In this document: one piece after another, positions 3,842-28,547 of the stretch
Layout: each line of letters begins with the position of its first letter
Numbering within the stretch: position 1 is the first letter of the stretch
Source of the DNA: a virus
Strand: one strand, 5' to 3'
Virus record (IMG/VR): IMGVR_UViG_3300009164_002986
Coordinates: 1 to 29,659 of that record
Length of the DNA stretch: 29,659 bases
Made by a program: the position numbers and the translations under genes
Notes under the pieces: generated by a model
The model's database searches: none
The model's input: the letters and a program-made list of their open reading frames with translations, nothing else
Told to the model about the DNA's origin: nothing

Positions 3842-5041
3842 ATGACAATTAACACTGAACCATTCAAAAAACTAGTAGATAACTTGAAAGACTCGGGCAA
3901 ATACCGTGTGTTCAACGATATCCTACGTGAAAACGGCAAGTTTCCCAATGCTATTTGGTACGGGCCTTACAACATCAAGACTATCACCAACTGGTGTAGC
4001 AACGACTACTTGGGCATGGGTCAGCACAAAGTTGTCCTAGATGCCATGCACACAGCATTGGACATGACTGGGGCTGGATCTGGCGGTACTAGAAACATTG
4101 CGGGTACTAGCCACTATCATGTAGCCTTAGAACACGAGCTTGCTAGTCTACATAAGAAAGAACGAGCATTACTGTTCTCTAGTGCCTATGTGGCCAACGA
4201 GTGGACACTAATTGCCCTAGCCAAGATCATTCCCAACATACACTACATCAGCGACAGCAAGAATCACAACAGTATCATTGTGGGAATTAGTCATAGTAAG
4301 GCTGCTAAAAGCATATTCAAACACAACGACATGACCATGCTGGAAGAAATGTTGCAAGCAAGTGTGGCAGCTGGACACACTCCGTGCATTGTGTTTGAAA
4401 GTGTTTACAGCATGGATGGCGATGTGAGTTTGATTAAGGACATTTGCGACCTAGCAGACAAATATGCAGCCATCACATACATTGATGAAGTACACGCTGT
4501 GGGCCTGTATGGAGAGAAAGGTGCTGGTAAGTTAGAGGAGTTAGGTCTACAAGACCGCGTTGACATAGTTAACGGAACCTTGGGAAAAGCGTTCGGAGTT
4601 CAAGGCGGGTACATTGCTGCCAATAGCATTGTAATAGATGCAGTCCGCAGCATCGCAGCTGGCTTTATTTTTACAACGTCAATGAGTCCAGTTACTTGTG
4701 CTGGTGCATTGGCAGCTGTTAAGTATTTGAAAGCACATCCAGAACTACGTGAACAACATCAAGACCGTGCAAGTAAACTAAAGCAGTGTCTACAAAAAGC
4801 GGGACTGCCAGTAATGGCCAGTACCACACACATTGTGCCTGTACTGGTAGGAGATGCCAAACGTGCTAAGGCCATGAGTGATGCATTGATGAGTGACTAC
4901 AACATCTATGTACAGGCTATTAACTTTCCCACTGTGGATGTAGGAACGGAGCGGTTGCGTTTTGCGCCCACTCCGTTACATGATGATGGTATGATTGAAG
5001 ACTTAGTTCAAGCGTTGCAAAAAGTCTTTAGCACATACTAG
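3842..5041 (+). CDS. hemA: 5-aminolevulinate synthase (ALAS)
   Basis: ALAS condenses glycine and succinyl-CoA to 5-aminolevulinate, the first step of heme synthesis by the Shemin pathway, using PLP. The product is 399 aa, full length for the family. Diagnostic segments are [11 protein letters not shown] (51-61), [13 protein letters not shown] (77-89), FKHND (159-163), [10 protein letters not shown] (185-194), [10 protein letters not shown] (215-224), [13 protein letters not shown] with PLP-lysine Lys249, GFIFTTS (274-280), and [11 protein letters not shown] near the C-terminus. These favour ALAS over BioF or KBL. It is very like the alphaproteobacterial enzyme. The start at 3842 is chosen for family length and its late-like box. 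It is the only plus-strand gene in a minus-strand late block and its end overlaps the convergent gene by 14 bp, so it looks like an acquired metabolic cargo gene. Confidence 0.93.
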
Positions 5042-7972: not shown

Positions 7973-8515
7973 TATTGATTGAACGAATTCGTTTCCGGAA
8001 CGCTCTACGGAAGAATTCCATTGATCTTTGAGATCGTTGTCAAATACAATTTCATGATCGGCTGAAGCAGTTAGCCAACTGAAACTGTGATCTCGTTGTG
8101 ATGTGCCTTTGAGTTCTTCTACCAGTTGTCTTGGTGCCCAGCCGCACAAACCCAAAAATAATCTAAACTGTTTGGGTGCATCTCCGTCACCCAATCGAAC
8201 CAACAAATCTTCTGCACTGCTGATTGAAAAGTCTTCGTTGATTTGCATGGTGTTGGTGCAAGCCCATTCACTGCTGTGTAGCATACTAAGAGCTTTGATG
8301 TTGACTGGGCCACCCAAATAAATGTAGCCAGGTATATTGAGTCGAGCAATACCCACTTGTTCACTGAACTCAGACACAGTCATTTCACTGCGCTTGTTCA
8401 ATATAAGTCCCATGCTACCATTAGCATGGTGTTCAGTTACGAAGATTACACTCTTGTACCAAAAGTTGCTTTTTAGTTTTGGGGGTGCAATTAGTAGTGT
8501 CCCAGATAGATCCAT
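7964..8515 (-). CDS. YqgE/AlgH family protein
   Basis: The product is 183 aa, normal family length. Family pattern: SGTLLIAPPKL, VIFVTEHHANGSMGLILNKR (17-residue core of EH..NG.MGLI.N), YLGGPV, and FRLFLGLCGWAPRQLVEEL. YqgE/AlgH proteins are small conserved bacterial proteins once linked to alginate regulation; the molecular function is unresolved. There is no signal peptide. The start overlaps the upstream lysin stop as TAATG. Presence in a late module suggests a conserved phage use of this host-type protein. Confidence 0.88.
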   Translation of the reverse strand: MDLSGTLLIAPPKLKSNFWYKSVIFVTEHHANGSMGLILNKRSEMTVSEFSEQVGIARLNIPGYIYLGGPVNIKALSMLHSSEWACTNTMQINEDFSISSAEDLLVRLGDGDAPKQFRLFLGLCGWAPRQLVEELKGTSQRDHSFSWLTASADHEIVFDNDLKDQWNSSVERSGNEFVQSILT

Positions 8516-9858
8516 TATGCCACATTCATTGATTGTTTAAAAGCGGCATAACGCATTTTACGATCATCTAATCCGTTATAACCGCCGTTTATTACTTTAG
8601 TTATAGATGTAACATCATCCCAGTTACTAACTTTGGATTGCACATACGTTTTCCAAAACAGTATAGCTGTCTTGGCTGCTACATCTGGTTTTTCAACTAA
8701 GTCTGGGTTTTTTTCTAAAGGTAATCCTAATTTAGCTCCTGCATCTCTATAATTAGCACGACCAGTTAGGCCAATGTATCCACGGCCTCTATATCGATAC
8801 CCGTCACCTTTTTGTAAATTACCTAAATCTCTACGACCTTCGTAGCCTTGTTGTGCAGTACTTGGTCCCCATATTTCACTTAGGTACCTAAAGCCTCCAC
8901 TCTCGTGACTGCATTGTGCAAGGAACGCTGCTAGCTCTTTGCCTTTAATGCCTTGTCCCATTGCTTCCTTAGCCAGCAAGTCTCTCGATTCTTTATCACC
9001 CAATGCACTTACTGCAATCTTACCTTTAAACTCTTCTGGTTTGGCTTTTTCTAATTTGCTTGCTTTTGGATTCTCTGCTACTACTTTATTCAATGCTTGT
9101 ACTGTTTCAGGTGTTGCAGTTCCTGTCGCAGGCAATTTATTATCCGCTTGAAACTTTGAAATGCCAGCAGCAGTATACTTGCCTATGATACCATCGTCCT
9201 TTGTTGGGCCAACATCATAGCCCAATGCCATCAATGCACGTTGTAAGTTAACTACTTCAACACCCCTACTGCCCATCTTAGGACCAGTTGGTACTAGAAT
9301 GTAGCCAGCACCAGCATTGTCTGACGTAGCTGTTTTGTCTGCGTCTGGTGTAGCTGCTTGTCCAGGCTTTGCGCCAGCTTTTACTTTTGCAGCAGCAGTA
9401 CCATACCAGCCCATAGGAGCATGAATACCATCGCCGCTAGAAACACTTAGTTTGCCCATGTCAATAACTTCAACTCCGCTTGGTATACTTGCCTGTACTA
9501 GTTGTCTTAATTGGTTTTTGTCTTGAGCAAATTTAGGATTGTCTGTTTCAGCAAATAGTACATAGAACACTTTGCATTTCTTTTGTAGCAATTCACTAAG
9601 CATACTGTCAATTTTGCTTACCACTTGTTGTTTGTTAGGGTTTAACATGTCGTTAGCGCCAGCACTTAGTACCACTGTACTTCCAGGACTAACTTTTGCA
9701 ATAGCATCATCATTGGCACCGTTCATTGCACTTCGGCCGTTAGTTGCTAGGCTAATAAATTTACCTGTACCGGCAATAGCTACTGCATGGCTGTCGCCAA
9801 TAGCATATATTTTTGTAGCTGTTTCTGGTTGTGTTTCTTTAAATTCAAAAAATCTCAT
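8515..9858 (-). CDS. Three-domain lysin: SGNH hydrolase + PG-binding + GH19
   Basis: The product is 447 aa. Residues about 15-155 form an SGNH/GDSL hydrolase: GDSH with Ser23, GAND with Asn69, and DGIH with Asp143/His146. Residues about 195-260 are a peptidoglycan-binding-1 repeat (VVNLQRALMALGYDVG, DGIIGKYTAAGI). Residues about 280-447 are a GH19 lysozyme/chitinase-like domain with catalytic Glu319 (CSHESGGF) and RGRGYIGLTGRANY. It should bind and cut peptidoglycan, and the esterase may deacetylate it. The N-terminus MRFFEFKETQ shares the tag of other late genes, arguing for a virion-packaged enzyme rather than a simple endolysin. A strong AAGGAT site precedes the ATG. Confidence 0.88.
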   Translation of the reverse strand: MRFFEFKETQPETATKIYAIGDSHAVAIAGTGKFISLATNGRSAMNGANDDAIAKVSPGSTVVLSAGANDMLNPNKQQVVSKIDSMLSELLQKKCKVFYVLFAETDNPKFAQDKNQLRQLVQASIPSGVEVIDMGKLSVSSGDGIHAPMGWYGTAAAKVKAGAKPGQAATPDADKTATSDNAGAGYILVPTGPKMGSRGVEVVNLQRALMALGYDVGPTKDDGIIGKYTAAGISKFQADNKLPATGTATPETVQALNKVVAENPKASKLEKAKPEEFKGKIAVSALGDKESRDLLAKEAMGQGIKGKELAAFLAQCSHESGGFRYLSEIWGPSTAQQGYEGRRDLGNLQKGDGYRYRGRGYIGLTGRANYRDAGAKLGLPLEKNPDLVEKPDVAAKTAILFWKTYVQSKVSNWDDVTSITKVINGGYNGLDDRKMRYAAFKQSMNVA

Positions 9859-9866
9859 TTTTATCC

Positions 9867-10511
9867 TTATGCTAGCGGGTTAACTTGTTGCCCACTACTT
9901 GCGTATTTTTCCCAGTGCAAATGATTGCCTGTACTAAATCCAGTGCTACCAACACGGCCAATTACATCACCCTTCTTAACCACATCTCCTAACGTTGCTT
10001 CTATTTTAGACATGTGCATAAATCTGTGTCGTTGTCCATCTGATGTGACCATCTCAACGTAGTTGCCTGCTGAAGGATTGTTTGGTTGAACTAATGTAAT
10101 CTTACCGTTGTCTGGAGCAACAATCGGTGTACCTTCTGGTGCTGCAATATCAACTCCTGGATGCGGGATTTTGTCACCTTTAGGTCCAGTTACCACACGA
10201 CCATACTCGCCAGTTAGTCTACCTTTAGTTGGTACTTGGTCATTACCAGTAGCTGGTTCAGGAGATTCACCTGAGTCAGCATCAAACTTTTGTAGTGCGG
10301 TTGTGTCTGGCTTCTTAACATCTTTAGGATCAATTCCTTTCTCAGCAGCATCCTTTGCCGCTTGTGTGTAAGGTCCCATGATGCCATCAATGCCATCTTC
10401 CTCAGGACCATATGTGCCCAAGTCGTAACCTTTGGCTTTTAATTCTTTTTGTAGTTTGACTATTTCTGGATCGCTTTGCGCTTCAACCACACGGAACTCT
10501 CTGAATCTCAT
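9867..10511 (-). CDS. M23 (LytM-type) peptidase with PG-binding-like N-terminus
   Basis: The start at 10511 (MRFREFRVVEAQ) is chosen over an upstream in-frame ATG because it overlaps the preceding stop as TAATG and restores the shared N-terminal tag. The product is 214 aa. Residues 15-60 resemble a peptidoglycan-binding repeat (LQKELKAKGYDLG, DGIMGPYTQAA). The M23 domain has HPGVD (His117, Asp121), His166 (HRFMHMS) and HLHWE (His197, His199), a complete LytM zinc site. It should cut peptide cross-links in peptidoglycan, complementing the GH19 lysin directly downstream. Confidence 0.9.
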   Translation of the reverse strand: MRFREFRVVEAQSDPEIVKLQKELKAKGYDLGTYGPEEDGIDGIMGPYTQAAKDAAEKGIDPKDVKKPDTTALQKFDADSGESPEPATGNDQVPTKGRLTGEYGRVVTGPKGDKIPHPGVDIAAPEGTPIVAPDNGKITLVQPNNPSAGNYVEMVTSDGQRHRFMHMSKIEATLGDVVKKGDVIGRVGSTGFSTGNHLHWEKYASSGQQVNPLA

Positions 10512-10816
10512 TATTGATTCCCCTTCCATACTGGTAGTGGGCCACCATAGTTGCCGCCTTTGACTTTTTTGCCTTTGACCTTTTGACGTTTGCGATTGAT
10601 AGTAAACTTCTTCTCAGTTGCTCTCGCTCTGAATCCTTGACTGATACAACTGCTTAACTGACTAGCGCCTAATTCGCCTGCGGGTTTGGTGCTCTTGCAC
10701 AACTTGCGACTGGCTTTGCCTGACTCGGCCAAACTGCCGCCACACACTTCACAAAATTGTTCTGTGCCTTCAGCTACATCTTGCCTGGCCCTTGAGGTAA
10801 ATTCGTTTGCTCTCAT
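10511..10816 (-). CDS. Small zinc-ribbon-like basic late protein
   Basis: The start at 10816 overlaps the upstream stop as ATGA and gives MRANEFTSRARQDVAEGT. The product is 101 aa. A CEVC pair (FCEVCGGSLAES) with later Cys (KLCKST, SSCISQGF) suggests zinc binding. The C-terminus is strongly basic (KRQKVKGKKVKGGNYGG). Nucleic-acid or head-core association is plausible. It shares its first six residues with the gene upstream. No named family. Confidence 0.65.
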   Translation of the reverse strand: MRANEFTSRARQDVAEGTEQFCEVCGGSLAESGKASRKLCKSTKPAGELGASQLSSCISQGFRARATEKKFTINRKRQKVKGKKVKGGNYGGPLPVWKGNQ

Positions 10817-14924: not shown

Positions 14925-14927
14925 AGT

Positions 14928-15128
14928 ATGAAAATGGAAAGAGTTGAAGTGGGCATGTTCAAATTGCCAGGCGTAGTTCTTGACAAAGAAGAAATGACCG
15001 AAGAGAAGATTGCGGAGATGGATGAATGGCGACTGACTGAACAAGGAGTTGGCACACGCATGACTGATCTGTTGTGGAGTTTTCGAAACGAAAGTCAAAG
15101 GGACTGGTTTATTCTAAAGTGGTCATGA
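14928..15128 (+). CDS. Small protein of the WF.LRW family (member 1)
   Basis: The product is 66 aa; the start could also be the ATG at 14934. Its C-terminus FRNESQRDWFILKWS carries the motif shared by several neighbours: aromatic strand, acidic/polar turn, WF-x-L-R/K-W. The N-terminal part (VGMFKLPGVVLDKEEMTEEK) is unique. The stop overlaps the next start within TCATGA, a junction sequence repeated through this family. Function unknown. Confidence 0.65.
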   Translation: MKMERVEVGMFKLPGVVLDKEEMTEEKIAEMDEWRLTEQGVGTRMTDLLWSFRNESQRDWFILKWS

Positions 15129-15343
15129 TAACAGTTATAGTCAAAGATCGAAATCCCAATGATGTATTGGAAATAGTTCGCGAGCTGAGATCTCAGGGAC
15201 TTGTACAAGGCACTGACTTTGACTTTGCTTACAACAAAGCACAATATGATAACTTTGGTTACGAACCAGCAGTGGAGAGACACACAGTATTTTCGTTCCA
15301 TACTGAAAAGTATGCTACACTATTTGCATTGAGGTACGCATGA
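15125..15343 (+). CDS. Small protein of the WF.LRW family (divergent member)
   Basis: The product is 72 aa from the overlapping ATG at 15125. It begins as a strand-helix unit (MITVIVKDRNPNDVLEIVRE) and ends TVFSFHTEKYATLFALRYA, a clear variant of the F.F..EKD..WF.LRW ending with Leu-Phe for Trp-Phe. The alternation suggests a compact alpha/beta (possibly ferredoxin-like) fold. Function unknown. Confidence 0.65.
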   Translation: MITVIVKDRNPNDVLEIVRELRSQGLVQGTDFDFAYNKAQYDNFGYEPAVERHTVFSFHTEKYATLFALRYA

Positions 15344-15606
15344 CTCAAGGGGAACATGCTATTCATGATTGGGAACGAGAGAAAAAATCCAAAAGATTTG
15401 AATACTGGCATCGACTGCGTCTTGCCAAAGAAGATTACTATGGCATTTATGATAGGCTAACTGAAACTACTCCAGAATTTTATCAGCATTTGAAAAAACA
15501 ATACGGGATCAAACTGGATTTTGATAGTAGTGGAAACATAACTGACACTTATCAAATCGTAGATGAAAAAAAATACATGCTTTTCATTTTGAAATACCCA
15601 AAATAA
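15340..15606 (+). CDS. Small protein of the WF.LRW family (divergent member)
   Basis: The product is 88 aa, coupled by ATGA to the previous gene. The N-terminal half is a charged helix (HDWEREKKSKRFEYWHRLRL). The C-terminus IVDEKKYMLFILKYPK matches the family ending loosely (LF.LKY). Followed by a 16-nt gap with AAGGATTGAG as ribosome site for the next gene. Confidence 0.6.
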   Translation: MTQGEHAIHDWEREKKSKRFEYWHRLRLAKEDYYGIYDRLTETTPEFYQHLKKQYGIKLDFDSSGNITDTYQIVDEKKYMLFILKYPK

Positions 15607-15622
15607 TATAAGGATTGAGAAA

Positions 15623-15820
15623 ATGACTCTTGAAGACTTACAATATATCTTTGAATATCAAATTGAAGAAGGCACAGAAAAGCTGTACTTCATGACGACT
15701 GATGGTGATCGTCATCCCCTAATACAACGACATCCTGCTGGGGATTTGGCTGGCCTATTGCCCATGCTGGATTCTTTTCAATACACAGGACACAATGTGA
15801 TGCCGAGGTTTGTGAAATGA
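15623..15820 (+). CDS. Unrecognised small acidic protein (65 aa)
   Basis: The product begins MTLEDLQYIFEYQIEEGTEK and has a YFMTTDGDRHPLIQ strand-turn segment. An AAGGATTGAG site precedes it, the only clear Shine-Dalgarno in this stretch of overlapping genes, so it may be a re-initiation point. Stop overlaps the next ATG by 4 nt. Function unknown. Confidence 0.6.
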   Translation: MTLEDLQYIFEYQIEEGTEKLYFMTTDGDRHPLIQRHPAGDLAGLLPMLDSFQYTGHNVMPRFVK

Positions 15821-16089
15821 ATGAACGGATTAAAGAACTTTTAAATCAGGCTACTACTGATGCCTTGTATGAAACTAAAGATGCTATTGACTTCTTAGAT
15901 AATCCTGTGTCAAAACAACAACGTGAATTACAGTTAGAAAAGTTCGCCGAGTTGATTGTGCGGGAATGTTTGAATGTTATGAGCAAAACCTCAGAAGAAG
16001 CTAACAAGAGGTTTACTTATATGGGTGATGATGTTCCTACAGTAGTGCATCAAATGAACATTGAGAAACATTTTGGAGTTGAACAATGA
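15817..16089 (+). CDS. Conserved-type small phage protein (90 aa)
   Basis: The product begins MNERIKELLNQATTDALYET. The central KFAELIVRECLNVM and C-terminal IEKHFGVEQ match a type of protein I associate with many environmental T4-like phages; no function is established. It is mostly helical with one Cys. Coupled by ATGA overlaps on both sides. Confidence 0.7.
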   Translation: MNERIKELLNQATTDALYETKDAIDFLDNPVSKQQRELQLEKFAELIVRECLNVMSKTSEEANKRFTYMGDDVPTVVHQMNIEKHFGVEQ

Positions 16090-16322
16090 CCATATTCATA
16101 CCCGTGCTGTTTATTTGCCTTAACGGCAACTGCGAGTTCATGCAGGCAAAAACATACTACAAAAACGAAGCACAATGTAGAGCCAGCCTTGACGTGCAAA
16201 AACAGCACATGCGGAATCTAGTGGAAAAGGCCGCAGAGCAAGGTACCAAAGGTGAAATTACCATTTTGGAAGGTACTTGTATAGATGCTGAAATCAAAAC
16301 GACCCAAGGCAGAACAACATGA
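16086..16322 (+). CDS. Small Cys-containing protein, possibly exported
   Basis: The product is 78 aa. A short hydrophobic opening (MTIFIPVLFICLNGNCEF) could be a signal or simply a buried strand; it lacks a basic n-region, so export is uncertain. Four Cys (CLNGNC, QCRASL, GTCIDA) suggest paired disulfides or metal binding. Coupled to both neighbours by overlap. Function unknown. Confidence 0.6.
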   Translation: MTIFIPVLFICLNGNCEFMQAKTYYKNEAQCRASLDVQKQHMRNLVEKAAEQGTKGEITILEGTCIDAEIKTTQGRTT

Positions 16323-16825
16323 ATATATTTTTAGATATGGATGACGTGGTGGCCGCTTGGCAAGAACGGGCACAGGAGATACTGAAGCTACGTGTTAACA
16401 AAGACAGTGATCGTATACCACAGGCGGAATGGGACAAGCTCAAAGAAGACTTGCGCTTCTATAGAGACTTGCCCTTGATGGAGGGCGCACATGAACTGGT
16501 AGATATGTGTAAGCAGTACATTGCTCGTAACCCACAGTACACCTTGAGATTCCTCACAGCATTGCCGCATGACTACTCCATGCCATTGGCCGTTTACGAC
16601 AAAGTTCATTGGGGAGATCAACACTTCCCAGGCATACCAGTTACAATTGGTCCATTCAGCTACGACAAATGGCGACATTGTAAAAATGCGGGAGACATAC
16701 TAATTGATGACCGTGTGAGCAACTGTGAAGAATGGGAAGCTCGCGGCGGTGTTGCACACAGATATACCACTTGGGAGGCATGCGAGCCATGGCTGAACTC
16801 TGTCCTTACCAAAAGCGAATCTTAA
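16319..16825 (+). CDS. 5'(3')-deoxyribonucleotidase-like HAD enzyme
   Basis: The product is 168 aa. MNIFLDMDDVVAAWQERA carries HAD motif I with Asp6 and Asp8. The NT5C-type layout follows: FYRDLPLMEGAHELV, a TLRFLTALP segment (motif II Thr), YDKWRHCKNAGDILIDDRVSNCEEW (motifs III/IV, Lys and Asp pair) and a C-terminal substrate strand. The family dephosphorylates deoxynucleoside monophosphates, tuning dNTP pools. Coupled upstream by ATGA; its 3' end overlaps the next gene by 37 nt. Confidence 0.85.
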   Translation: MNIFLDMDDVVAAWQERAQEILKLRVNKDSDRIPQAEWDKLKEDLRFYRDLPLMEGAHELVDMCKQYIARNPQYTLRFLTALPHDYSMPLAVYDKVHWGDQHFPGIPVTIGPFSYDKWRHCKNAGDILIDDRVSNCEEWEARGGVAHRYTTWEACEPWLNSVLTKSES

Positions 16826-17193
16826 ACGGCGTTAAGTACGGTGAGGTGAATATCATGATGGCTGGTAGACAAATGGGCAAGAGCATGTTTAGTAGTCAAG
16901 CCATCAAACGACTAATGGACGACATAATGCTTAGGCCTGTGGAAGATCTTGTACTTAGTGAAGGCACTGTGTACGGCTCACGTTATTATTGTGTAGAGCC
17001 TTTTGGCGGTAATTGGCGAGAAATGGAAGACTGGTGCATTAATACATTTGGTTCGAGTACTGGCAGTATCTGGGCTGAAGAGGTTGATAAAGTAACTCCG
17101 CAACCCAGTGAACGTTGGTATGGCAACAATCGTAAGTTTTGGTTCCGTACAGAGAAAGATCGTAACTGGTTTGTATTAAGGTGGCGATCATGA
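16789..17193 (+). CDS. Orphan Walker-A segment fused to a WF.LRW domain
   Basis: The start at 16789 is 10 nt after GGAGG; an ATG at 16780 is too close to it. The product is 134 aa. The first ~45 residues (CPYQKRILNGVKYGEVNIMM, then AGRQMGKSMFSSQAIKRL) look like the N-terminal ATPase motif of large terminases (RQ.GKS P-loop), but no Walker B or nuclease follows. The C-terminal half is the small-protein family domain: WCINTFG...RKFWFRTEKDRNWFVLRW. This is a domain fusion or a relic P-loop protein. It might bind nucleotide, but hydrolysis seems unlikely. Confidence 0.7.
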   Translation: MAELCPYQKRILNGVKYGEVNIMMAGRQMGKSMFSSQAIKRLMDDIMLRPVEDLVLSEGTVYGSRYYCVEPFGGNWREMEDWCINTFGSSTGSIWAEEVDKVTPQPSERWYGNNRKFWFRTEKDRNWFVLRWRS

Positions 17194-17453
17194 ATGATTC
17201 ATTAGAAGATTATTATGCTACTGCTGCTCAAGTCATAGCCAACGACATTGATCGAGAAGTCATGTGGGGTATGCTAGAAGGTATAGGTTGGACTCGTGTT
17301 ATGCTACCTAGACTTATAGACAATAATCATGCTATAGATATCACGCACTGGTTAGCAATTAACTGCAAGCATCCATTTGAACGTAGTGGTAGAGACTTTA
17401 TGTTTGAGAGTCAACAAGATGCCAATTGGTTTATATTAAAGTGGATGTCATGA
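17190..17453 (+). CDS. Small protein of the WF.LRW family
   Basis: The product is 87 aa from the ATG overlapping the upstream stop (a GTG at 17181 is less likely). The N-terminus is acidic and helical (MNDSLEDYYATAAQVIANDI). The C-terminal domain reads THWLAINCKHPFERSGRDF then MFESQQDANWFILKWMS. Trp, Cys and Phe positions align with neighbours. Function unknown. Confidence 0.7.
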   Translation: MNDSLEDYYATAAQVIANDIDREVMWGMLEGIGWTRVMLPRLIDNNHAIDITHWLAINCKHPFERSGRDFMFESQQDANWFILKWMS

Positions 17454-17647
17454 CACTACCTCACAATATTGAAATTGATCACGAGTATTCTGTTATTGAT
17501 GTGGATGGCAGTTCTGAAACTCTCAACAATGCCATTGCTTGGTGTACGGAATGTTTTGGTCCTGCTGGCCATAGATGGTTCTATACATTCAAACGATTTT
17601 ATTTTAGAGAAGAAAAAGATTCTCTTTGGTTTGAATTGCGATGGTAA
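17450..17647 (+). CDS. Small protein of the WF.LRW family
   Basis: The product is 65 aa and nearly only the shared domain: DVDGSSETLNNAIAWCTECF, GPAGHRWFYTFKR, then FYFREEKDSLWFELRW. It is the clearest minimal member, so it best defines the unit: strand, helix with WC..xFG, aromatic strand, F.F..EKD turn, WF.LRW strand. The start overlaps the upstream stop as ATGA. Confidence 0.7.
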   Translation: MTLPHNIEIDHEYSVIDVDGSSETLNNAIAWCTECFGPAGHRWFYTFKRFYFREEKDSLWFELRW

Positions 17648-17883
17648 TACGCCCAGTGAAAACCCGAAGGAGCCTTGAGTATGAGGTATACATTGATGCA
17701 CATCGACACGGTGAAGCTGGGAAGTGGTGTGAGCAAGAGTTTGGCCAACGATGGGAAGCAATAGGTCATACTGATGGGTTATGGTGCATGTTCTGGGCGG
17801 GTCGTGATGCACACGATAAGTATAGATTTTGTTTTGCAGAAGAAAAACAACGCATGTGGTTTTCATTAAAATGGTTATCATGA
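17641..17883 (+). CDS. Small protein of the WF.LRW family
   Basis: The product is 80 aa and overlaps the upstream gene by 7 nt. It shows the full domain: YEVYIDAHRHGEAGKWCEQE, FGQRWEAIGHTDGLWCMFW, then KYRFCFAEEKQRMWFSLKWLS. Its size is unchanged relative to the 17450 member except for an inserted loop. Four closely related members in a row (16789-17883) imply recent tandem duplication. Confidence 0.7.
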   Translation: MVIRPVKTRRSLEYEVYIDAHRHGEAGKWCEQEFGQRWEAIGHTDGLWCMFWAGRDAHDKYRFCFAEEKQRMWFSLKWLS

Positions 17884-21503: not shown

Positions 21504-21787
21504 AATTTATCAATACCACGTTAGAATGGATTAAACAAGATTGGCAGTCAAATCCGTGGAGGCTAGCTGCCGAAACTTACAATGCGTTTACAGCATTGGC
21601 CACTGCTATTATTTTTGCTTCCATGGCTCCACATGTTCCTTATGAAATAACTTATCCTTTATGGTTAAGCGGAACATTCCTTATGATATTCTGTGGGATC
21701 AGTCGTGGCAGTGTTGGTATGGTAACCATGAGCGTCATTATGACAATTATTGATACTGTTGGCTACGCTAGATTATTGATGTCTTAA
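21500..21787 (+). CDS. Small membrane protein (about three spans)
   Basis: The product is 95 aa. NPWRLAAETYNAFTALATAI begins the first hydrophobic run; further spans are PLWLSGTFLMIFCGISR and VGMVTMSVIMTIIDTVGY. It belongs to a type of small phage inner-membrane protein I associate with T4-like environmental phages. Its 3' end overlaps the convergent radical-SAM gene by 15 nt with no terminator between them. Confidence 0.7.
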   Translation: MKFINTTLEWIKQDWQSNPWRLAAETYNAFTALATAIIFASMAPHVPYEITYPLWLSGTFLMIFCGISRGSVGMVTMSVIMTIIDTVGYARLLMS

Positions 21788-23074
21788 ACTTTGATAGAAT
21801 AACACTAGTTCTGGAAATACTTCCATAAAGTTTGTCTTTCGTTTTGCATCCAATGCTTCAACTCCTTTGACAAACTTTGTTTTAACTTCAGTATAATCAA
21901 AAGTTTGATTTAGAAGATTTAAACAATTATCTATACTTGCTGTCCAAGCTGGTGATGGCAATATAGTCTTGCTGTCACCTAAAGCTATTTGGATCTTTTC
22001 TCTAAACTCGTCGTGCATAGTCAAGTTTAAAAAGTTCCACACTAACGGATTCGAAACATAAGTTAATTTCATTCCAGCTCTTTTGGAGATGTTGTTGTCA
22101 ACATACCATTGGGATAATTCATTTAGTGTAAATGTATTAAACAAAGTAAAGCTAGTCTGTATGGTCATTTCAATTCCAGCATCGTGGAAGCGATCAAAAT
22201 TTTCTAACCATTTACTTTCGTGATATCCATATCTAAAGTATTCACCTCGACGACCAAAGTGATCATGGCTCATGGTAATCTTACAGTTCTTACCCCACGG
22301 TCCCAAGTAGTCCTCTACAATATCTACACCCTTGTAGGTTCTGATACTGCCGTTAGTATGGAACCATAAGTTGATCTGCTTATTGAGTCCTCGCTTTATT
22401 AACTCATCAATCAACTCAAACGTTTCTTCTTGCATTAACGGCTCGCCACCATTAAAATGTATTTGGTCTATCTCATTGCAGTTGTCCAAAACGTATTTCA
22501 TTTTGGAACTGTTGTCAACTACTGCACTAGTCTTATAATTGTCGTAGTGAGATAATGCTCCCTTGTCTAACCAAATTGGAAATACTTCTTTGTAGTTGTC
22601 TGCCACTGCACTACTAATGTCTGGCTGGCAATGTAAACAGGCTAAGTTACATTTGTTGGTCCATATCAAATCAACAAATTTAAGATTGTGTTTGTGTAGT
22701 TGCCCATCACTGTCAGTATGAGCTAAACTATCTTCAATAACATTCTTACCTTGCTGATTGCTTAACCATCTTGGGTTGCCAATTGCCGGCCCTCCGCGTT
22801 CAGTTTCCCAGCAGCTTTCACAACTATTAGGTCGCTGCTTGTCCATAAACTCTTTACGTATACCTTTAGCAACATCATTGTTCATAATGTTAATTACAGT
22901 ATCAGTCTTAATGTTACCCAATATTTGATTACTGGCACAACAGAACTTGACGTTGCCGTCACTGCTGGTCCAAACTGTATTCCAAGGAGCACAGCAGAAG
23001 CTTTCCCCGTACTCTTTGATTACAGGATGCTCTTTCATTTCTTCAAATTTTATTGAGTTATTAATTTGTACCAT
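21773..23074 (-). CDS. Radical SAM protein with Cys-rich auxiliary domain (1)
   Basis: Radical SAM enzymes use a 4Fe-4S cluster to cleave SAM and start radical chemistry. The product is 433 aa. The cluster motif CxxxCxxC is CNLACLHC (Cys142, 146, 149), with GGEPL at 209-213 for SAM binding and HTNG about 20 residues later. Before it, Cys27/28 (CCAPW), Cys45/46 (FCCA) and Cys85/88 (SCESCW) form an N-terminal twitch/SPASM-like set that may bind a further cluster. The substrate is unknown. It overlaps its upstream partner by 25 nt and is the last gene of the operon. Confidence 0.88.
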   Translation of the reverse strand: MVQINNSIKFEEMKEHPVIKEYGESFCCAPWNTVWTSSDGNVKFCCASNQILGNIKTDTVINIMNNDVAKGIRKEFMDKQRPNSCESCWETERGGPAIGNPRWLSNQQGKNVIEDSLAHTDSDGQLHKHNLKFVDLIWTNKCNLACLHCQPDISSAVADNYKEVFPIWLDKGALSHYDNYKTSAVVDNSSKMKYVLDNCNEIDQIHFNGGEPLMQEETFELIDELIKRGLNKQINLWFHTNGSIRTYKGVDIVEDYLGPWGKNCKITMSHDHFGRRGEYFRYGYHESKWLENFDRFHDAGIEMTIQTSFTLFNTFTLNELSQWYVDNNISKRAGMKLTYVSNPLVWNFLNLTMHDEFREKIQIALGDSKTILPSPAWTASIDNCLNLLNQTFDYTEVKTKFVKGVEALDAKRKTNFMEVFPELVLFYQSLRHQ

Positions 23075-24246
23075 GTGGGTTCTAGTTTTTCAAATATTGT
23101 AAAATTCTTATAGATAGTCAATGCTTTGGCATCTCGTCTGTCCATATACTGTTTAGTCGTTTCAAGTAGTGGTCTTGGTTTATTATCATTTAAATATTTG
23201 ATAACAAACTGCATCCTAGGATCATCTAGGTATAGATCACGTAAGTAATCCTTTGCTTGTTCGTTTAGATTGTCTACTGCCAGTTCTGCTGGCCAATGAA
23301 CAAATTGATAATGCCATTGTATTCTGTGGTCTTCTAAAAAGTCTACCATTGGTGTTAGTTTATGTACATTAAGAACACTGATAGTAATTCCAACTTTGTG
23401 ATAAAACGGATCTCCGTTAGTCATCCCTAGTTTAGCCATCTCTTTGTATTGTAACATATTTTTCACCCACAAATTCCAGTTACCCCTAGTCCTAATATAT
23501 TCACTCAATTCTTCTGTAGCGTCCTGACTCACATCAAACTGAATTGATTTAAAACTACGTAACATTGTTATTTGTTCAGGCTTTAAGTTTACTGTGCCAT
23601 TAGTATTAATACCCAAATTGATATTTTGAGCATAGCCATTTGTTACCACATGCTCCATTAGTCTCCAAAAGTATTCATTAACTAGTGGTTCTCCCCCACT
23701 TATCTGTAGCTTAACAATGTTTGCAGTTAATTCTAATAGTTTATCAAACACTCCTGGTCGTGTATACCATTCTAAATCCCCGTAACGTTTATTCTTTATG
23801 GGAGTAGCGTAAAAAACTTTTCGATCACTAATATATTGCACTTCAAATTCTTTTTCTAATAAACTACTGCTTTCTTCACTACAAGTTCTACAAGCTAGAT
23901 TACATAAGTTGCCAAACTTGATGTGCATACTACGTATCATTGGAGTTTTATAATACAATAGTGTAGTCTCTGGAGCAAATCGATCAAACATATTTTCACG
24001 CATACTTTTTGTGCCTGAACGTTCGTGATTGATACACTGACCACAATCGGATTCGATCATGTCTCTGTGAGTTCTAAAGTGATCTCTAATGCCTTTTAAG
24101 TCTGGATGAGTATCCCATTTATCAAGGTCTTCTGCTGATTGGATTATGTAATTGCTGTCTTTACGATACATGGCACAGCAAGGTCCCACAGTGCCTTTGG
24201 GCTCAATATATAAATGTGTAAATGGGAATAAACAATCTTTGGTCAT
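23050..24246 (-). CDS. Radical SAM protein with Cys-rich auxiliary domain (2)
   Basis: The start at 24246 overlaps the carbamoyltransferase stop as ATGA (a TTG two codons earlier is unlikely). The product is 398 aa. The core motif is CNLACRTC (Cys115, 119, 122), SGGEPLVNE follows at 183-191, and NTNGT later. N-terminal Cys5, 23/24, 68 and 71 (CGQC) repeat the auxiliary pattern of the downstream paralogue. Two divergent radical-SAM enzymes in tandem suggest sequential steps on one substrate. Coding is noticeably AT-rich compared with the genes upstream in the operon. Confidence 0.88.
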   Translation of the reverse strand: MTKDCLFPFTHLYIEPKGTVGPCCAMYRKDSNYIIQSAEDLDKWDTHPDLKGIRDHFRTHRDMIESDCGQCINHERSGTKSMRENMFDRFAPETTLLYYKTPMIRSMHIKFGNLCNLACRTCSEESSSLLEKEFEVQYISDRKVFYATPIKNKRYGDLEWYTRPGVFDKLLELTANIVKLQISGGEPLVNEYFWRLMEHVVTNGYAQNINLGINTNGTVNLKPEQITMLRSFKSIQFDVSQDATEELSEYIRTRGNWNLWVKNMLQYKEMAKLGMTNGDPFYHKVGITISVLNVHKLTPMVDFLEDHRIQWHYQFVHWPAELAVDNLNEQAKDYLRDLYLDDPRMQFVIKYLNDNKPRPLLETTKQYMDRRDAKALTIYKNFTIFEKLEPTWYKLITQ

Positions 24247-25721
24247 GAACAAACTTTAACTCCATATAATTTTTCAAAGCGGTCAGCATCAGCTCTGTTA
24301 TTGACCATAGGCTCGCCTCTAATATTGAGACTGGTGTTTAACAACATTGGACATCCAGTTATTGCGTACCACTGTTCAAGTAGCTGTCGTATTCCTGATC
24401 CATCTTTTGGTACTGTTTGTACACGACTAGTCCCGTCCCTATGAACGATAGCAGGAAATAGCTCAGGCACCCTACAACGAGCGACTGACTGCATATACCT
24501 GCTAGTGTGCCAAGCCCTAGGCATGTCAAAGTAAGTATCAGCCAGCTCTTCCAAAATAACAGGCGCAAATGGTCTGAAATGTTGTCTACGTTTAATGTCA
24601 TTTACTTTCTCCTTAATTTCTGTACCCCTTGGGTCAGCCAAGAGTGAACGATTACCCAAGGCTCGCGGCCCGTATTCTGCTGGTCCGGAAGCCACTCCCA
24701 CAATAGACTTATCAAGTAGCTGTACCATAATGTCATCAACAGGATAAGAGCCAGGTATAATATGACCGAGGCTAGCACTATGCCAGTTAACTCTACGCCC
24801 ATAACCCAAACAGGAAGCACCAAGGCTACTACCAGCATCACCAGGGTTAGGCATAATCCAAATATTTTCATAGTATTCTCCTAATAGTCTATTAGCCAGA
24901 CAATTGAGGGCTACCCCTCCGCCATAACACAAGTTTTTGCTAGGGCTTAGGGTCTGGGCTCGTTTCATGATAGCCCCTATGTACTGCTCGGCTATGCTTT
25001 GGGTAGTGGCTGCTATGTCAAAATCATCAGCCCCATGTAGGTAATTGGGGTTGACCCCTGTGTGCATGTTCTGTTTAAACGTTGTGTGTTCAATGCTGGC
25101 CACTAGGTCATTGTTCATAACAGGCTCTAGTTTGGTATTGCCATACGCAGCCATGCCCATGAGTATGTATTCCTCATCTAAAGGACGTAGTCCCACACGC
25201 TGTGTCATAGCTGTATAAAATAATCCCACGCTGTCGGGGTATGTCTGACTCCATAGCCTTTTATAACGAGCAAAACCGTTGGCATCGTAATGAGCCTCCC
25301 ATATGGTGGCTGTATCAAACTCTCCTATGGCGTCTATGACTACAACTGTGGCTTCTTCGTAGGGTGAGGTTTGAAACTGTGCCGCGGCATGGCTGAGGTG
25401 GTGCCCGTGAGTATACAGTTTGCGGCGATCTAATATATCCCACTGACTTTGACCTAACAAGTTTTGTGGTCGGGTTGATGGTCTTGCTTGGCCGGTACGT
25501 AAGGCTCTTAGCCAACGTAGCCAAGGACGTTCATAGTAGTGTAACTGATACACTCCATCAGTATGTGCTAGAGCATCCTCTATCAAATAAGGGCTTAGGC
25601 TTTTGTCATGTTTGATGCCACTGTAACGTTCACTGTGAGCAGCAAAGGCAATATCACCTTTATCTGTAATCACAGCCATAGCGGCATCATGGAATCCTGC
25701 GCTAATTCCTATGTAGTTCAT
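24243..25721 (-). CDS. Carbamoyltransferase (NodU/TobZ family)
   Basis: The family transfers a carbamoyl group from carbamoyl phosphate to a hydroxyl via carbamoyl-AMP. The product is 492 aa, short but complete: MNYIGISAGFHDAAMAVITD, the metal-binding HHLSHAA (107-113), IDAIGEFDTAT (129-139), CYGGGVALNCLANR (265-278), and the C-terminal YrdC-like domain with GPRALGNRSLLADPR (351-365) and LLNTSLNIRGEPMV near the end. It is coupled both sides by ATGA. The acceptor may be a sugar, nucleoside or polyketide-like moiety; in this operon it is presumably shared with the radical-SAM and SGNH proteins. Two same-strand ORFs are nested within it (24359-24871). Confidence 0.92.
   Translation of the reverse strand: MNYIGISAGFHDAAMAVITDKGDIAFAAHSERYSGIKHDKSLSPYLIEDALAHTDGVYQLHYYERPWLRWLRALRTGQARPSTRPQNLLGQSQWDILDRRKLYTHGHHLSHAAAQFQTSPYEEATVVVIDAIGEFDTATIWEAHYDANGFARYKRLWSQTYPDSVGLFYTAMTQRVGLRPLDEEYILMGMAAYGNTKLEPVMNNDLVASIEHTTFKQNMHTGVNPNYLHGADDFDIAATTQSIAEQYIGAIMKRAQTLSPSKNLCYGGGVALNCLANRLLGEYYENIWIMPNPGDAGSSLGASCLGYGRRVNWHSASLGHIIPGSYPVDDIMVQLLDKSIVGVASGPAEYGPRALGNRSLLADPRGTEIKEKVNDIKRRQHFRPFAPVILEELADTYFDMPRAWHTSRYMQSVARCRVPELFPAIVHRDGTSRVQTVPKDGSGIRQLLEQWYAITGCPMLLNTSLNIRGEPMVNNRADADRFEKLYGVKVCS
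24359..24601 (-). CDS. Nested putative membrane protein (2 of 2)
   Basis: Within the carbamoyltransferase gene, in another frame of the same strand, lies an 80-codon ORF starting ATG at 24601, 7 nt after AAGGAG and directly after the stop of the preceding nested ORF (TAAATG). It has two hydrophobic spans (SWLILTLTCLGLGTLAGICS and SLVVGCLSYFLLSFIGTGLV) with an amphipathic tail. It may be a real overprinted small membrane protein (holin-like?) or a frame shadow; the Shine-Dalgarno bases also encode Lys-Glu of the host frame. Confidence 0.3.
   Translation of the reverse strand: MTLNVDNISDHLRLLFWKSWLILTLTCLGLGTLAGICSQSLVVGCLSYFLLSFIGTGLVVYKQYQKMDQEYDSYLNSGTQ
24602..24871 (-). CDS. Nested putative membrane protein (1 of 2)
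   Basis: This 89-codon ORF lies in the same alternative frame. Its ATG (24871) follows AGGAG with a 6-nt gap. The product MKIFGLCLTLVMLVVALVLP continues hydrophobic for two more spans (GIVLASVILYLALILLMTLW, then SYLISLLWEWL) and ends in a basic tail (QKLRRK). The signal-like start, spans and charged tail look like a small inner-membrane protein. The chance of a hydrophobic shadow frame is considerable, so confidence is low. Confidence 0.35.
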   Translation of the reverse strand: MKIFGLCLTLVMLVVALVLPVWVMGVELTGIVLASVILYLALILLMTLWYSYLISLLWEWLPDQQNTGREPWVIVHSWLTQGVQKLRRK

Positions 25722-26626
25722 ATGACCTTGATGTATTCTCTAGCCCAGTTGGCTTGGGTAACAAGGCCTGGGTGGTGGTCATCTCTACCAACGTCCGTCA
25801 TAGGACACCACTGAGCTATTTTTAAACTGTCATCGTCATCTTTCATTTGTCTCAACACTTGACAAGTTTGATCGTTCCATGAGCCCAACACCACTTCTAT
25901 ACCACGTAGTTCTGCCACATATAAAATAGTTTGAACTACTTTTCTAAACGAATCCATATGTTCAACCCCTGATGTCCTAAAGTGCGCATCGTGTGCGTCC
26001 CTTATGTTTCTTGAATATGCATCTACGGCGGTGTATTTCTTCCAATTGTCATTTGCCAGCAACTGCCAATATATGCAGTCCGTTTGATTGTTCTCACGGC
26101 CAATACACACAGTCTTTCTATGATAGTCTGGAAACATGAACACAGCACGTTTCATCTGCACTAACCAGCTAGTGGCCATAAACATGAGCATACACTCTTC
26201 GGCACTAGTACCGCCAATGCCAAAGTTATTAGACACAGTACCCAAGACTTGATCTAATTGTTGAGACCACGTGGCATCATGGGGGACACCCTCACCCCAT
26301 GTCATACTGCACCCATAGTAACAATGATCCACTTGATCTAAAACTTCGTGCGTGTCCCTAAATCCCAAGCTGTTGACTTGATACTCAAAGTCAGGGTATT
26401 GCGGCCACAAGTCATTGAACTTGGCAACACGGGCACGTTCCCAATCATCACCGTGTGGACTTTTGTTGCCACTCAAACCCATGCCATGTGTTTGATATCG
26501 TAACTTTATCTCAAGGGTCAGTTGATCCCATGTGCGGGCGGCAAGTATGCCCTTGCCAGGGATGCCCACAGGGTAGTTGATTGTTCGCCAACTTTGTTCT
26601 ATATTGGGTGTAGTTTCAAATGCCAT
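25718..26626 (-). CDS. SGNH-hydrolase-like protein (1)
   Basis: The product is 302 aa. NSLGFRDTHE precedes the nucleophile block CYYGCSMTWGEGVP with Ser107. Next is VSNNFGIGGTSAEE (Asn134, the SGNH Gly/Asn block) and, near the C-terminus, RDDHHPG with Asp282 and His285 as the D-x-x-H pair. The order and spacing fit SGNH/GDSL esterases or acyltransferase-like proteins acting on carbohydrate. No signal peptide. It is a paralogue of the 26729 gene (shared FMATS, QMKRAVF.FPD, DAHFR segments). The start is preceded by a micro-gene ending TAAC-ATG. Confidence 0.75.
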   Translation of the reverse strand: MAFETTPNIEQSWRTINYPVGIPGKGILAARTWDQLTLEIKLRYQTHGMGLSGNKSPHGDDWERARVAKFNDLWPQYPDFEYQVNSLGFRDTHEVLDQVDHCYYGCSMTWGEGVPHDATWSQQLDQVLGTVSNNFGIGGTSAEECMLMFMATSWLVQMKRAVFMFPDYHRKTVCIGRENNQTDCIYWQLLANDNWKKYTAVDAYSRNIRDAHDAHFRTSGVEHMDSFRKVVQTILYVAELRGIEVVLGSWNDQTCQVLRQMKDDDDSLKIAQWCPMTDVGRDDHHPGLVTQANWAREYIKVI

Positions 26627-26627
26627 G

Positions 26628-26729
26628 TTAATATATAAAAGGATCTCTCTTTTTTAACTCTTTGAGCCTACGTCTATGTGCCCGTTCACGCTGCCAAGTG
26701 ATGTACAGTTCTCTAATCCAAGCAAACAT
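26628..26729 (-). CDS. Basic microprotein (33 aa), paralogue of 27621 gene
   Basis: The ORF encodes MFAWIRELYITWQRERAHRR followed by RLKELKKRDPFIY. It sits exactly between the two SGNH genes: its ATG overlaps the upstream stop as TAATG and its stop is followed by C-ATG of the next gene. The basic, Trp-rich helix and -DPFIY end match the 31-aa ORF upstream of the other SGNH gene. Two matching copies in the same position argue that it is real and conserved. Confidence 0.65.
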   Translation of the reverse strand: MFAWIRELYITWQRERAHRRRLKELKKRDPFIY

Positions 26730-27619
26730 TATAGCACATCCCTTATGCTTTCAGCAATGGCCTTGTGAGTTTGCACCCCAAAGTGCAGGTCATCACGTGC
26801 TATGTCTATGAGAGGACTGACCCAAGAGGGCAAGCGCCAAGTAGTCCCAGGGTAACGATTAAACACCATGAGTGCTTCATAACAGTGTTGAGTCCAAGAA
26901 GTCATCACAATGTCTATGCCTTTGAGAGCACCTATGTAGGCTATCAACTGTACTGTATTACGCATACGATCAAACATGTAATCGGCAGGCAGTCTAAAGT
27001 GTGCATCATAAACTGCATCAATACTCTGCCTATGATTCTTATACAAAGGATCTGTCATGTAGTGTTTGGTAAACATCAAGTTGTAGTAAAGTGTACGTCC
27101 CGTGTTATCGTCATCACTAAAGGGTGCTATGTGGCGGCTGATATCGGGAAAGTTGAACACAGCCCGCTTCATCTGTATACAGTTGCTGGTGGCCATGAAT
27201 AGCTGTAGAGTTTCATCTATGCTGTTGCCACAGATGCCAAAGTTGTTGCTGACTCCCCCAATCATGCTGTCCAGCTGCTCGCCATAGCGTCCAGCTACAG
27301 GCACTCCCATGGCATAGGTCTGACTGCATCCATAGTAGCAAGTGTCCACATGCAGCAAGGGTTCATGACTTCTAAATCCCACGCTGTTGTGTTGATAAGT
27401 GTGTTCTCCCCATTCACTCCACATGCGGGCAAACTGATCTACATTGGGTTCTTCAGCACGACTCACATTGGTTTGATTCATGTGGGGTTTGGCTTGAGGG
27501 TAACGAATGCCAACTTCTCTGCGTAGGTCTTCAATACTGCGTACATGAGCCATGCCAGTACTGGTGCTCAAGTGTACATCAAATAGTCTAAGTGGTAGTA
27601 GTGTCTCGGGATAAGTCAT
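26729..27619 (-). CDS. SGNH-hydrolase-like protein (2)
   Basis: The product is 296 aa, paralogous to the downstream gene. Blocks: NSVGFRSHEP, CYYGCSQTYAMGVP with Ser99, VSNNFGICGNSIDE (Asn126) and RDDLHFG (Asp276, His279). Conserved between the copies are also QMKRAVFNFPD and DAHFR, while the N-terminal 40 residues differ. A duplicated, diverged pair may recognise two related substrates or form a heterodimer. It begins one base after the 27621 micro-gene stop. Confidence 0.75.
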   Translation of the reverse strand: MTYPETLLPLRLFDVHLSTSTGMAHVRSIEDLRREVGIRYPQAKPHMNQTNVSRAEEPNVDQFARMWSEWGEHTYQHNSVGFRSHEPLLHVDTCYYGCSQTYAMGVPVAGRYGEQLDSMIGGVSNNFGICGNSIDETLQLFMATSNCIQMKRAVFNFPDISRHIAPFSDDDNTGRTLYYNLMFTKHYMTDPLYKNHRQSIDAVYDAHFRLPADYMFDRMRNTVQLIAYIGALKGIDIVMTSWTQHCYEALMVFNRYPGTTWRLPSWVSPLIDIARDDLHFGVQTHKAIAESIRDVL

Positions 27620-27620
27620 G

Positions 27621-27716
27621 TTAATAGTTGTAAGGGTTTTCCTTGCGCATCCGCCTCATGTGGCGCCTCCACTTGTATTCTCGTACAAGCCAACGATAAA
27701 AACGTATAATAAACAT
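27621..27716 (-). CDS. Basic microprotein (31 aa), first gene of the operon
   Basis: The ORF encodes MFIIRFYRWLVREYKWRRHM then RRMRKENPYNY. It aligns with the 26628 product: MF start, R/W-rich helix, R-R run, and a -(D/N)P(F/Y)xY end. ATTAAATA and ACTACT precede its ATG. It leads the carbamoyltransferase/radical-SAM operon. A small cationic amphipathic helix could bind membrane, RNA or the SGNH protein encoded next to it. Confidence 0.65.
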   Translation of the reverse strand: MFIIRFYRWLVREYKWRRHMRRMRKENPYNY

Positions 27717-28151: not shown

Positions 28152-28230
28152 GTGTATATAGCAATGGTCTAGCTGTGAGGTTTAGCCAATTGAGTGTGAG
28201 TTGTGCGTATACTGTAAAGAGCTAGCTGTG
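28152..28230. repeat. Duplicated 79-bp box unit, copy 1
   Basis: The unit has a 26-nt box A (28152-28177) and a 23-nt box B (28208-28230) exactly 30 nt apart; the second copy is at 28469-28547. Box A matches at 23 of 26 and box B at 22 of 23, while the 30-nt centre differs. Read on the minus strand both boxes begin CACAGCTAG. The unit lies 4 nt upstream of the 28046 gene start, so it is probably regulatory. Confidence 0.75.
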
Positions 28231-28247
28231 AGCTTCTACACATACAA

Positions 28248-28454
28248 CTACAGTATATAATCTTCCCGAGGTATTCTCTCTAGTGTGGGATCAATCAACA
28301 AGGCAAGGTCTACACACTGATTGGGTATCCAAAACAGCATGTGAGCATATCGATCTCCTATGAAACCTTGTTTAAATTGGATTAAACGCCACAACTGTTC
28401 GCGTGTCGGTTCGGAGGCGGTGCATTTGTAACATGGTATACGATCATTGAGCAT
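28248..28454 (-). CDS. Small Cys-containing protein (68 aa)
   Basis: From the ATG at 28454 the product is 68 aa (MLNDRIPCYKCTASEPTREQ... LERIPREDYIL). A CYKC pair suggests a metal or redox site; the rest is Trp/Leu-rich helix (LWRLIQFKQGFIGDRYAHML). An extension to an ATG at 28520 is possible, but it would run through the repeat unit. A CGTAAATA late-like box lies 7 nt upstream. No family recognised. Confidence 0.55.
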   Translation of the reverse strand: MLNDRIPCYKCTASEPTREQLWRLIQFKQGFIGDRYAHMLFWIPNQCVDLALLIDPTLERIPREDYIL

Positions 28455-28461
28455 AGTTGAG

Positions 28462-28469
28462 TATTTACG
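28462..28469 (-). promoter_or_regulatory. T4-late-like box CGTAAATA
   Basis: The minus strand reads CGTAAATACTCAACTATG, 7 nt from box to ATG at 28454. Compare GTTAAATACTCCACTATG before the ALA synthase: the two sites are almost the same from box to start codon. Confidence 0.45.
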
Positions 28470-28547
28470 TGTATATGCAAATGGTCTAGCTGTGGGTCCT
28501 ACAGTATATACAGTAGACATAACATATACAGTAAAGAGCTAGCTGTG
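28469..28547. repeat. Duplicated 79-bp box unit, copy 2
   Basis: Box A (28469-28494) and box B (28525-28547) with a 30-nt centre containing ACAGTATATACAGT. Same geometry as copy 1, 317 bp away. It ends 14 nt upstream of the 28454 start codon. Confidence 0.75.

Follow-up and report, generated by a model that had tools for sequence, protein, structure and literature searches.

Two microproteins encoded on a viral DNA fragment belong to a new family which, judged from gene content and sequence conservation, probably comprises small partners of phage class III O-carbamoyltransferases belonging to a single clade, with a C-terminal tail as the dock. The near-constant co-occurrence of both genes points to an unrecognised working partner of the carbamoyltransferase. 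The fragment, referred to as the window, is an IMG/VR viral record that was analyzed over its whole length of 29,659 bases. The genes of interest form a tightly packed operon on its minus strand, in the following order.

27621..27716, minus strand: microprotein 1 (31 aa), a diverged duplicate with the tail ENPYNY, kept in the contigs L003 and L004
26729..27619, minus strand: SGNH/GDSL hydrolase-like protein 1 (SGNH1, 296 aa), with block I GCSxT, NFG and D..H conserved
26628..26729, minus strand: microprotein 2 (33 aa), with the canonical tail RDPFIY and a match to the family profile
25718..26626, minus strand: SGNH/GDSL hydrolase-like protein 2 (SGNH2, 302 aa), with the catalytic blocks and an AF2 model matched by Foldseek to GDSL hydrolases
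24243..25721, minus strand: O-carbamoyltransferase (492 aa), with Carbam_trans_N and Carbam_trans_C domain matches, the constant companion of the microprotein family
23050..24252, minus strand: radical SAM protein with an N-terminal SPASM-type cluster domain, in the same operon as the carbamoyltransferase
21773..23074, minus strand: second radical SAM/SPASM protein, likewise in this operon

Several adjacent genes of the operon share one or a few bases. The start of microprotein 2 overlaps the SGNH1 stop by 1 base, and the start of the carbamoyltransferase gene overlaps the SGNH2 stop (ATGA). Both radical SAM proteins (21776-24252, minus strand) gave weak matches to prokaryotic viperin profiles, which most likely reflect general radical SAM similarity.

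The initial annotation had described two small basic ORFs at 26628-26729 and 27621-27716, each directly upstream of an SGNH gene. Both were confirmed on the minus strand; microprotein 1 has the sequence MFIIRFYRWLVREYKWRRHMRRMRKENPYNY and microprotein 2 the sequence MFAWIRELYITWQRERAHRRRLKELKKRDPFIY. A TAAC-ATG junction common to both pairs had also been reported. It is present in the window, where both SGNH genes begin at TATTAAC-ATG, but does not extend to L003, another IMG/VR contig, where the junctions read TAA-T-ATG and TGA-TATT-ATG. The four genes, two for microproteins and two for SGNH proteins, are arranged in L003 as they are in the window. Identity between the two contigs amounts to 30/31 residues for microprotein 1 and about 79% for microprotein 2, and the L003 copies match the profile of the wider family at 47.6 and 60.4 bits. 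The proposed dN/dS check was performed pairwise and gave values of 0.044 (microprotein 1) and 0.169 (microprotein 2), each of them rough when taken alone, given such short sequences. The SGNH genes showed a similar dN/dS of about 0.11. This synonymous-biased divergence supports translation of both ORFs. Homologous loci without the ORF, or with frame-breaking indels in it, had been named as evidence against a gene; in the SGNH-bearing relatives examined the microproteins withstood this comparison. Conservation in L003, the dN/dS values and the matches to the wider-family profile together argue that both ORFs exceed chance and are genuine genes.

The assignment of the neighbouring genes as SGNH-like was borne out. 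S107, N134-G136, D282 and H285, which represent the catalytic Ser of block I, block II and the D..H of block V, were invariant in 11 sequences. The AF2 model of SGNH2 (pLDDT 82) gave the GDSL lipases 4rsh and 3p94 as best Foldseek matches (probability 1.0, E 3e-5). SGNH1 and SGNH2 can be placed in the SGNH/GDSL superfamily by their catalytic blocks and a predicted flavodoxin-like alpha/beta fold, the latter taken from the SGNH2 model. The two microproteins are about 35% identical, in agreement with their description as paralogs, and SGNH1 and SGNH2 group as sisters in the tree (support 1.0). Thus, microprotein and SGNH gene were duplicated in this lineage as one unit, as had been proposed. After the duplication copy 2 apparently kept the canonical tail and copy 1 drifted (NPYNY).

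When viral contigs were searched with a profile of the microproteins, at least 366 confirmed relatives were obtained, and 80 microprotein loci from this search were read. The family consensus comprises about 34 residues, a basic helix followed by KELRKRDPFIYK at the C-terminus. The helix ranges in character from basic to aromatic and has a Pro-Tyr kink. DPFIY was found in 206 of the 224 distinct sequences collected over all loci, and the motif always ends at most 3 residues from the stop. The microprotein is single-copy in 20/20 large records of up to 360 kb; two copies occur, as exceptions, in the window, L003/L115, L123 and L142. Nearly all members stem from uncultivated contigs, and the family was also found on three bacterial or archaeal MAG contigs which are probably viral. 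The expectation that genes of this size escape notice agreed with the catalogues: there was no match to the family in Pfam, the best NCBIfam value was 0.028, and the best PHROG (0.0039) was unannotated and hit by only 2 of 59 members. No PDB chain showed similarity to the microprotein at meaningful E-values, and a literature search for RDPFIY returned no paper. The 50,697 phage records searched with natural unmasked queries contained no convincing family member. A divergent member is present in the single-cell virus record MH319727; the absence from isolates therefore means that no close relative occurs there. As far as conservation tells, the microproteins are an uncatalogued family under protein-level selection across hundreds of uncultivated phages.

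In order to identify the gene that accompanies the microprotein, 197 distinct contexts were compared. The next gene encoded a carbamoyltransferase in 111 and an SGNH-like protein in 44 of them; the remaining next genes include those for SAM synthetase, a nucleotidyltransferase, a hydroxylase and methyltransferase-like proteins. To avoid circularity, loci were fetched again by the carbamoyltransferase alone, as a near and a far set of 80 loci each. The microprotein was located within 5 kb of the carbamoyltransferase gene in 76/80 loci of the near set and 65/80 of the far set. Four further far-set loci carried a divergent microprotein and nine loci a microprotein elsewhere in the record, which brings the total to 154 of 160 loci with both genes in one record. 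In the other direction, exactly one carbamoyltransferase of the clade was present in 25 of the 26 microprotein records that were tested, in some of them at a distance of tens of kb. Eighty loci were also retrieved through the neighbouring DnaB-like helicase: both genes were present in 52, the enzyme without the microprotein in 4, the reverse in none, and neither gene in 24 (Fisher P=1.3e-16, a value which ignores phage relatedness and so overstates independence; some contigs recur between the samples). All four enzyme-only loci lie on contigs of 4.5-6.9 kb, which are perhaps truncated. Of 32 whole records of 30 kb or more, all those with the clade enzyme (25/25) and none of those without a carbamoyltransferase (0/6) contained the microprotein; the seventh microprotein-negative record encodes carbamoyltransferases only of another, longer type. 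Against a partnership stand the complete genome of phage C48C1, in which the clade enzyme is present and the microprotein was undetected, and the wide separation of the two genes in some records.

These counts bear on the reading given in the initial annotation, which regarded the microprotein as a functional partner of the adjacent SGNH hydrolase. The 44 SGNH-like next genes and the joint duplication in the window speak in its favour, as does the L222 genome, in which the microprotein adjoins an SGNH gene and lies 17 kb from the carbamoyltransferase. However, the carbamoyltransferase is the commoner next gene, and over whole records the presence of the microprotein follows this enzyme even when the genes are far apart. 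The family occupies two types of operon, modification clusters with SGNH, radical SAM and sugar nucleotide enzymes, and replication operons, where microprotein and carbamoyltransferase genes lie between those for DNA primase and DnaB helicase and SGNH is absent from the recurrent neighbours. The carbamoyltransferase is thus a better predictor of the microprotein than SGNH, which is an optional neighbour. The proposed partnership was mostly wrong, and a specific role with the hydrolase is very unlikely. In some replication-operon loci (L204:4728-4985 and similar) a gene for a small DUF2061-like membrane protein stands between the microprotein and carbamoyltransferase genes.

The carbamoyltransferase of the window (24243-25721) matched PF02543 (E 7e-34) and PF16861 (E 4.5e-46), both above the cut-off. 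Its best PDB sequence matches were the novobiocin carbamoyltransferase, GdmN and TobZ. Two His and two Asp residues of the metal site (H107, H111, D130 and D295) are invariant in alignment A5 and, by their motif, would correspond to H133, H137, D156 and D333 of GdmN (PMC9633730). By these features the companion is a recognisable class III (TobZ/GdmN-like) O-carbamoyltransferase of predicted activity. In the tree the microprotein-associated enzymes form one clade with a support of 1.0, and the enzymes of P-SSM2, HTVC008M and Mosig fall outside it. Of the 56 enzymes in the loci fetched by the helicase, 36 are reduced to the N-terminal domain (Carbam_trans_N match, no C domain; mostly 317-347 aa). 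The HHxSHAA, D-x-IGE and NPGD motifs are intact in these forms, one of which gave a weak match to HypF_C_2. The microprotein is retained alongside these short enzymes; consequently, it goes with the transfer domain. Such N-domain-only carbamoyltransferases were observed in L288-L350 (e.g. L294:4431-5396 and L349:4980-6002). All five N-domain-only records of at least 78 kb (G057, G068, G072, G074 and G082) encode a second, full-length carbamoyltransferase of about 600 aa elsewhere, which perhaps supplies carbamoyl-AMP.

We propose that the Kae1-like N-terminal domain, which would transfer the carbamoyl group, is the docking site of the DPFIY(K) tail. Such binding is suggested because the tail stays constant while the remainder of the microprotein varies, because unrelated products of genes adjoining that of the enzyme end in it, and because it persists with enzymes lacking the C-terminal domain. 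The fusions lie at or just upstream of the enzyme gene: the tail is fused to a GatZ/KbaZ-like aldolase in L225, L228 and L233, and caps SnoaL-like or similar small proteins in L255 and L123. AF2 modelling of a read-through microprotein-DUF2061-carbamoyltransferase chain, with neither a deep nor a paired alignment, gave a lone helix, a disordered tail (pLDDT <50) and no docking; this is weak evidence since no paired alignment was possible.

The fusions and the codons of the tail also bear on a reading at the RNA level, in which the ORF is a translation-coupling leader for the next gene and the peptide has no role. This would suit the overlap of the microprotein stop with the next start in about 72% of the contexts. 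However, the tail is conserved as protein while synonymous codon choice varies freely, with all 6 Arg, 4 Pro and 3 Ile codons in use. It is likewise preserved in front of other genes and at a distance from the enzyme, and other proteins carry it at their C-terminus. Since both codon usage and the fusions contradict it, a translational leader was rejected and is hardly credible.

A RiPP-type precursor would likewise be a short peptide with a conserved C-terminus; the DPFIY tail would form the core, and the radical SAM/SPASM neighbours would mature the peptide to a small molecule or cofactor. Radical SAM genes adjoin the microprotein in many loci; a radical SAM/SPASM gene is, however, a frequent and not a constant neighbour of the family. 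Constant pairing with such a maturation enzyme was not found among the replication-operon loci, which keep the microprotein while radical SAM is absent from their recurrent neighbours, and the tail caps folded enzymes as well. A precursor role is therefore improbable.

The main rival of docking is that the carbamoyltransferase modifies the tail itself, for instance at the invariant Tyr, so that tail-bearing proteins are its substrates, much as HypE is modified by HypF. DPFIYK would then be a transferable tag recognised and carbamoylated by the phage Kae1-like carbamoyltransferase, and the microprotein a carrier or a regulated subunit. The invariant C-terminal motif with its fully conserved Tyr is consistent with this idea, as are the tagging of unrelated proteins beside the enzyme and the cases in which the partner enzyme is reduced to the transfer domain and retains its metal site. 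On the other hand, the residues after the Tyr vary (K, R, D, N, none or KNF), and nothing separates a substrate role from docking. We consider carbamoylation of the tail unlikely; if true, a peptide-tag carbamoylation system is spread through uncultivated, including very large, phages.

For the docked microprotein, the variable basic/aromatic helix might tether the enzyme to a negatively charged place, either membrane or nucleic acid. Alternatively, it might tether the enzyme to SGNH and the other modifying enzymes of the operon. Carbamoylation could then happen at the tethered place. The amphipathicity of the helix was no higher than that of composition-matched shuffles (median p 0.35); thus, tethering to a membrane is unsupported beyond charge.

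Carbamoyltransferases occur widely in phages of aquatic habitats, and few have a known substrate. A near-obligate partner of 30-40 aa with a fixed C-terminal motif would offer a handle on the binding targets of these enzymes and on their site of action, and the N-domain-only enzymes that keep this partner narrow the interaction to one domain. In addition, the microproteins represent a widespread phage gene family that is absent from the standard family libraries searched.

Further features were observed elsewhere in the window. At 14925-17883 (plus strand) at least 7 short ORFs in tandem have the common C-terminal motif WFxL[KR]W or a close variant, as in DRNWFVLRWRS, DANWFILKWMS and DSLWFELRW. 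The gene at 8515-9858 (minus strand) encodes a lysin-like protein with PG_binding_1 and GH19 and an N-terminal stretch resembling an SGNH hydrolase (IYAIGDSHA); an M23 peptidase gene (9867-10529) adjoins it. An apparently non-coding region at 28152-28547 holds four 26-nt repeats with the core AGCTAGCTGTG/GGTCTAGCTGTG at spacings of 53, 264 and 53. At 3842-5041 (plus strand) a PLP-dependent aminotransferase of class I/II is encoded which resembles alpha-oxoamine synthases such as ALA synthase, the subfamily being judged by eye.

Among known systems, the 5-hydroxymethylcytosine carbamoyltransferase from viral metagenomes is also phage-associated and belongs to a lineage which co-occurs with thymidylate synthase homologues (PMC8670742). 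It shares its Pfam domains with the companion enzyme, although by inspection the enzyme sequences differ. A corresponding role in DNA modification was ranked low by us: thymidylate synthase (PF00303) co-occurs in only 8/23 records, and for this reason the present system is not that of the 5hmC carbamoyltransferase. TobZ, GdmN and NovN likewise combine PF02543 and PF16861, as does the companion enzyme. Of the studied enzymes TobZ is a monomer, whereas GdmN is a homodimer with a C-terminal dimerisation domain (PMC9633730). In comparison, enzymes of the phage clade are shorter, at about 490 aa, and some consist of the N domain alone, and a partner of 30-40 aa was not found described for these carbamoyltransferases within the limits of the literature collection searched. 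Small partners that aid a Kae1-like transfer domain are known for Kae1/TsaD, namely Pcc1 and Gon7 of KEOPS and the bacterial TsaB/TsaE. This is an analogy only; the microprotein lacks sequence similarity to these proteins at meaningful E-values and offers a short linear tail instead of a folded subunit. HypF carbamoylates the C-terminus of HypE. There, too, a Kae1-like carbamoyl-transfer domain acts on a conserved protein C-terminus; HypE, however, is a folded enzyme ending in Cys, whereas here the DPFIY(K) tail is carried by a microprotein.
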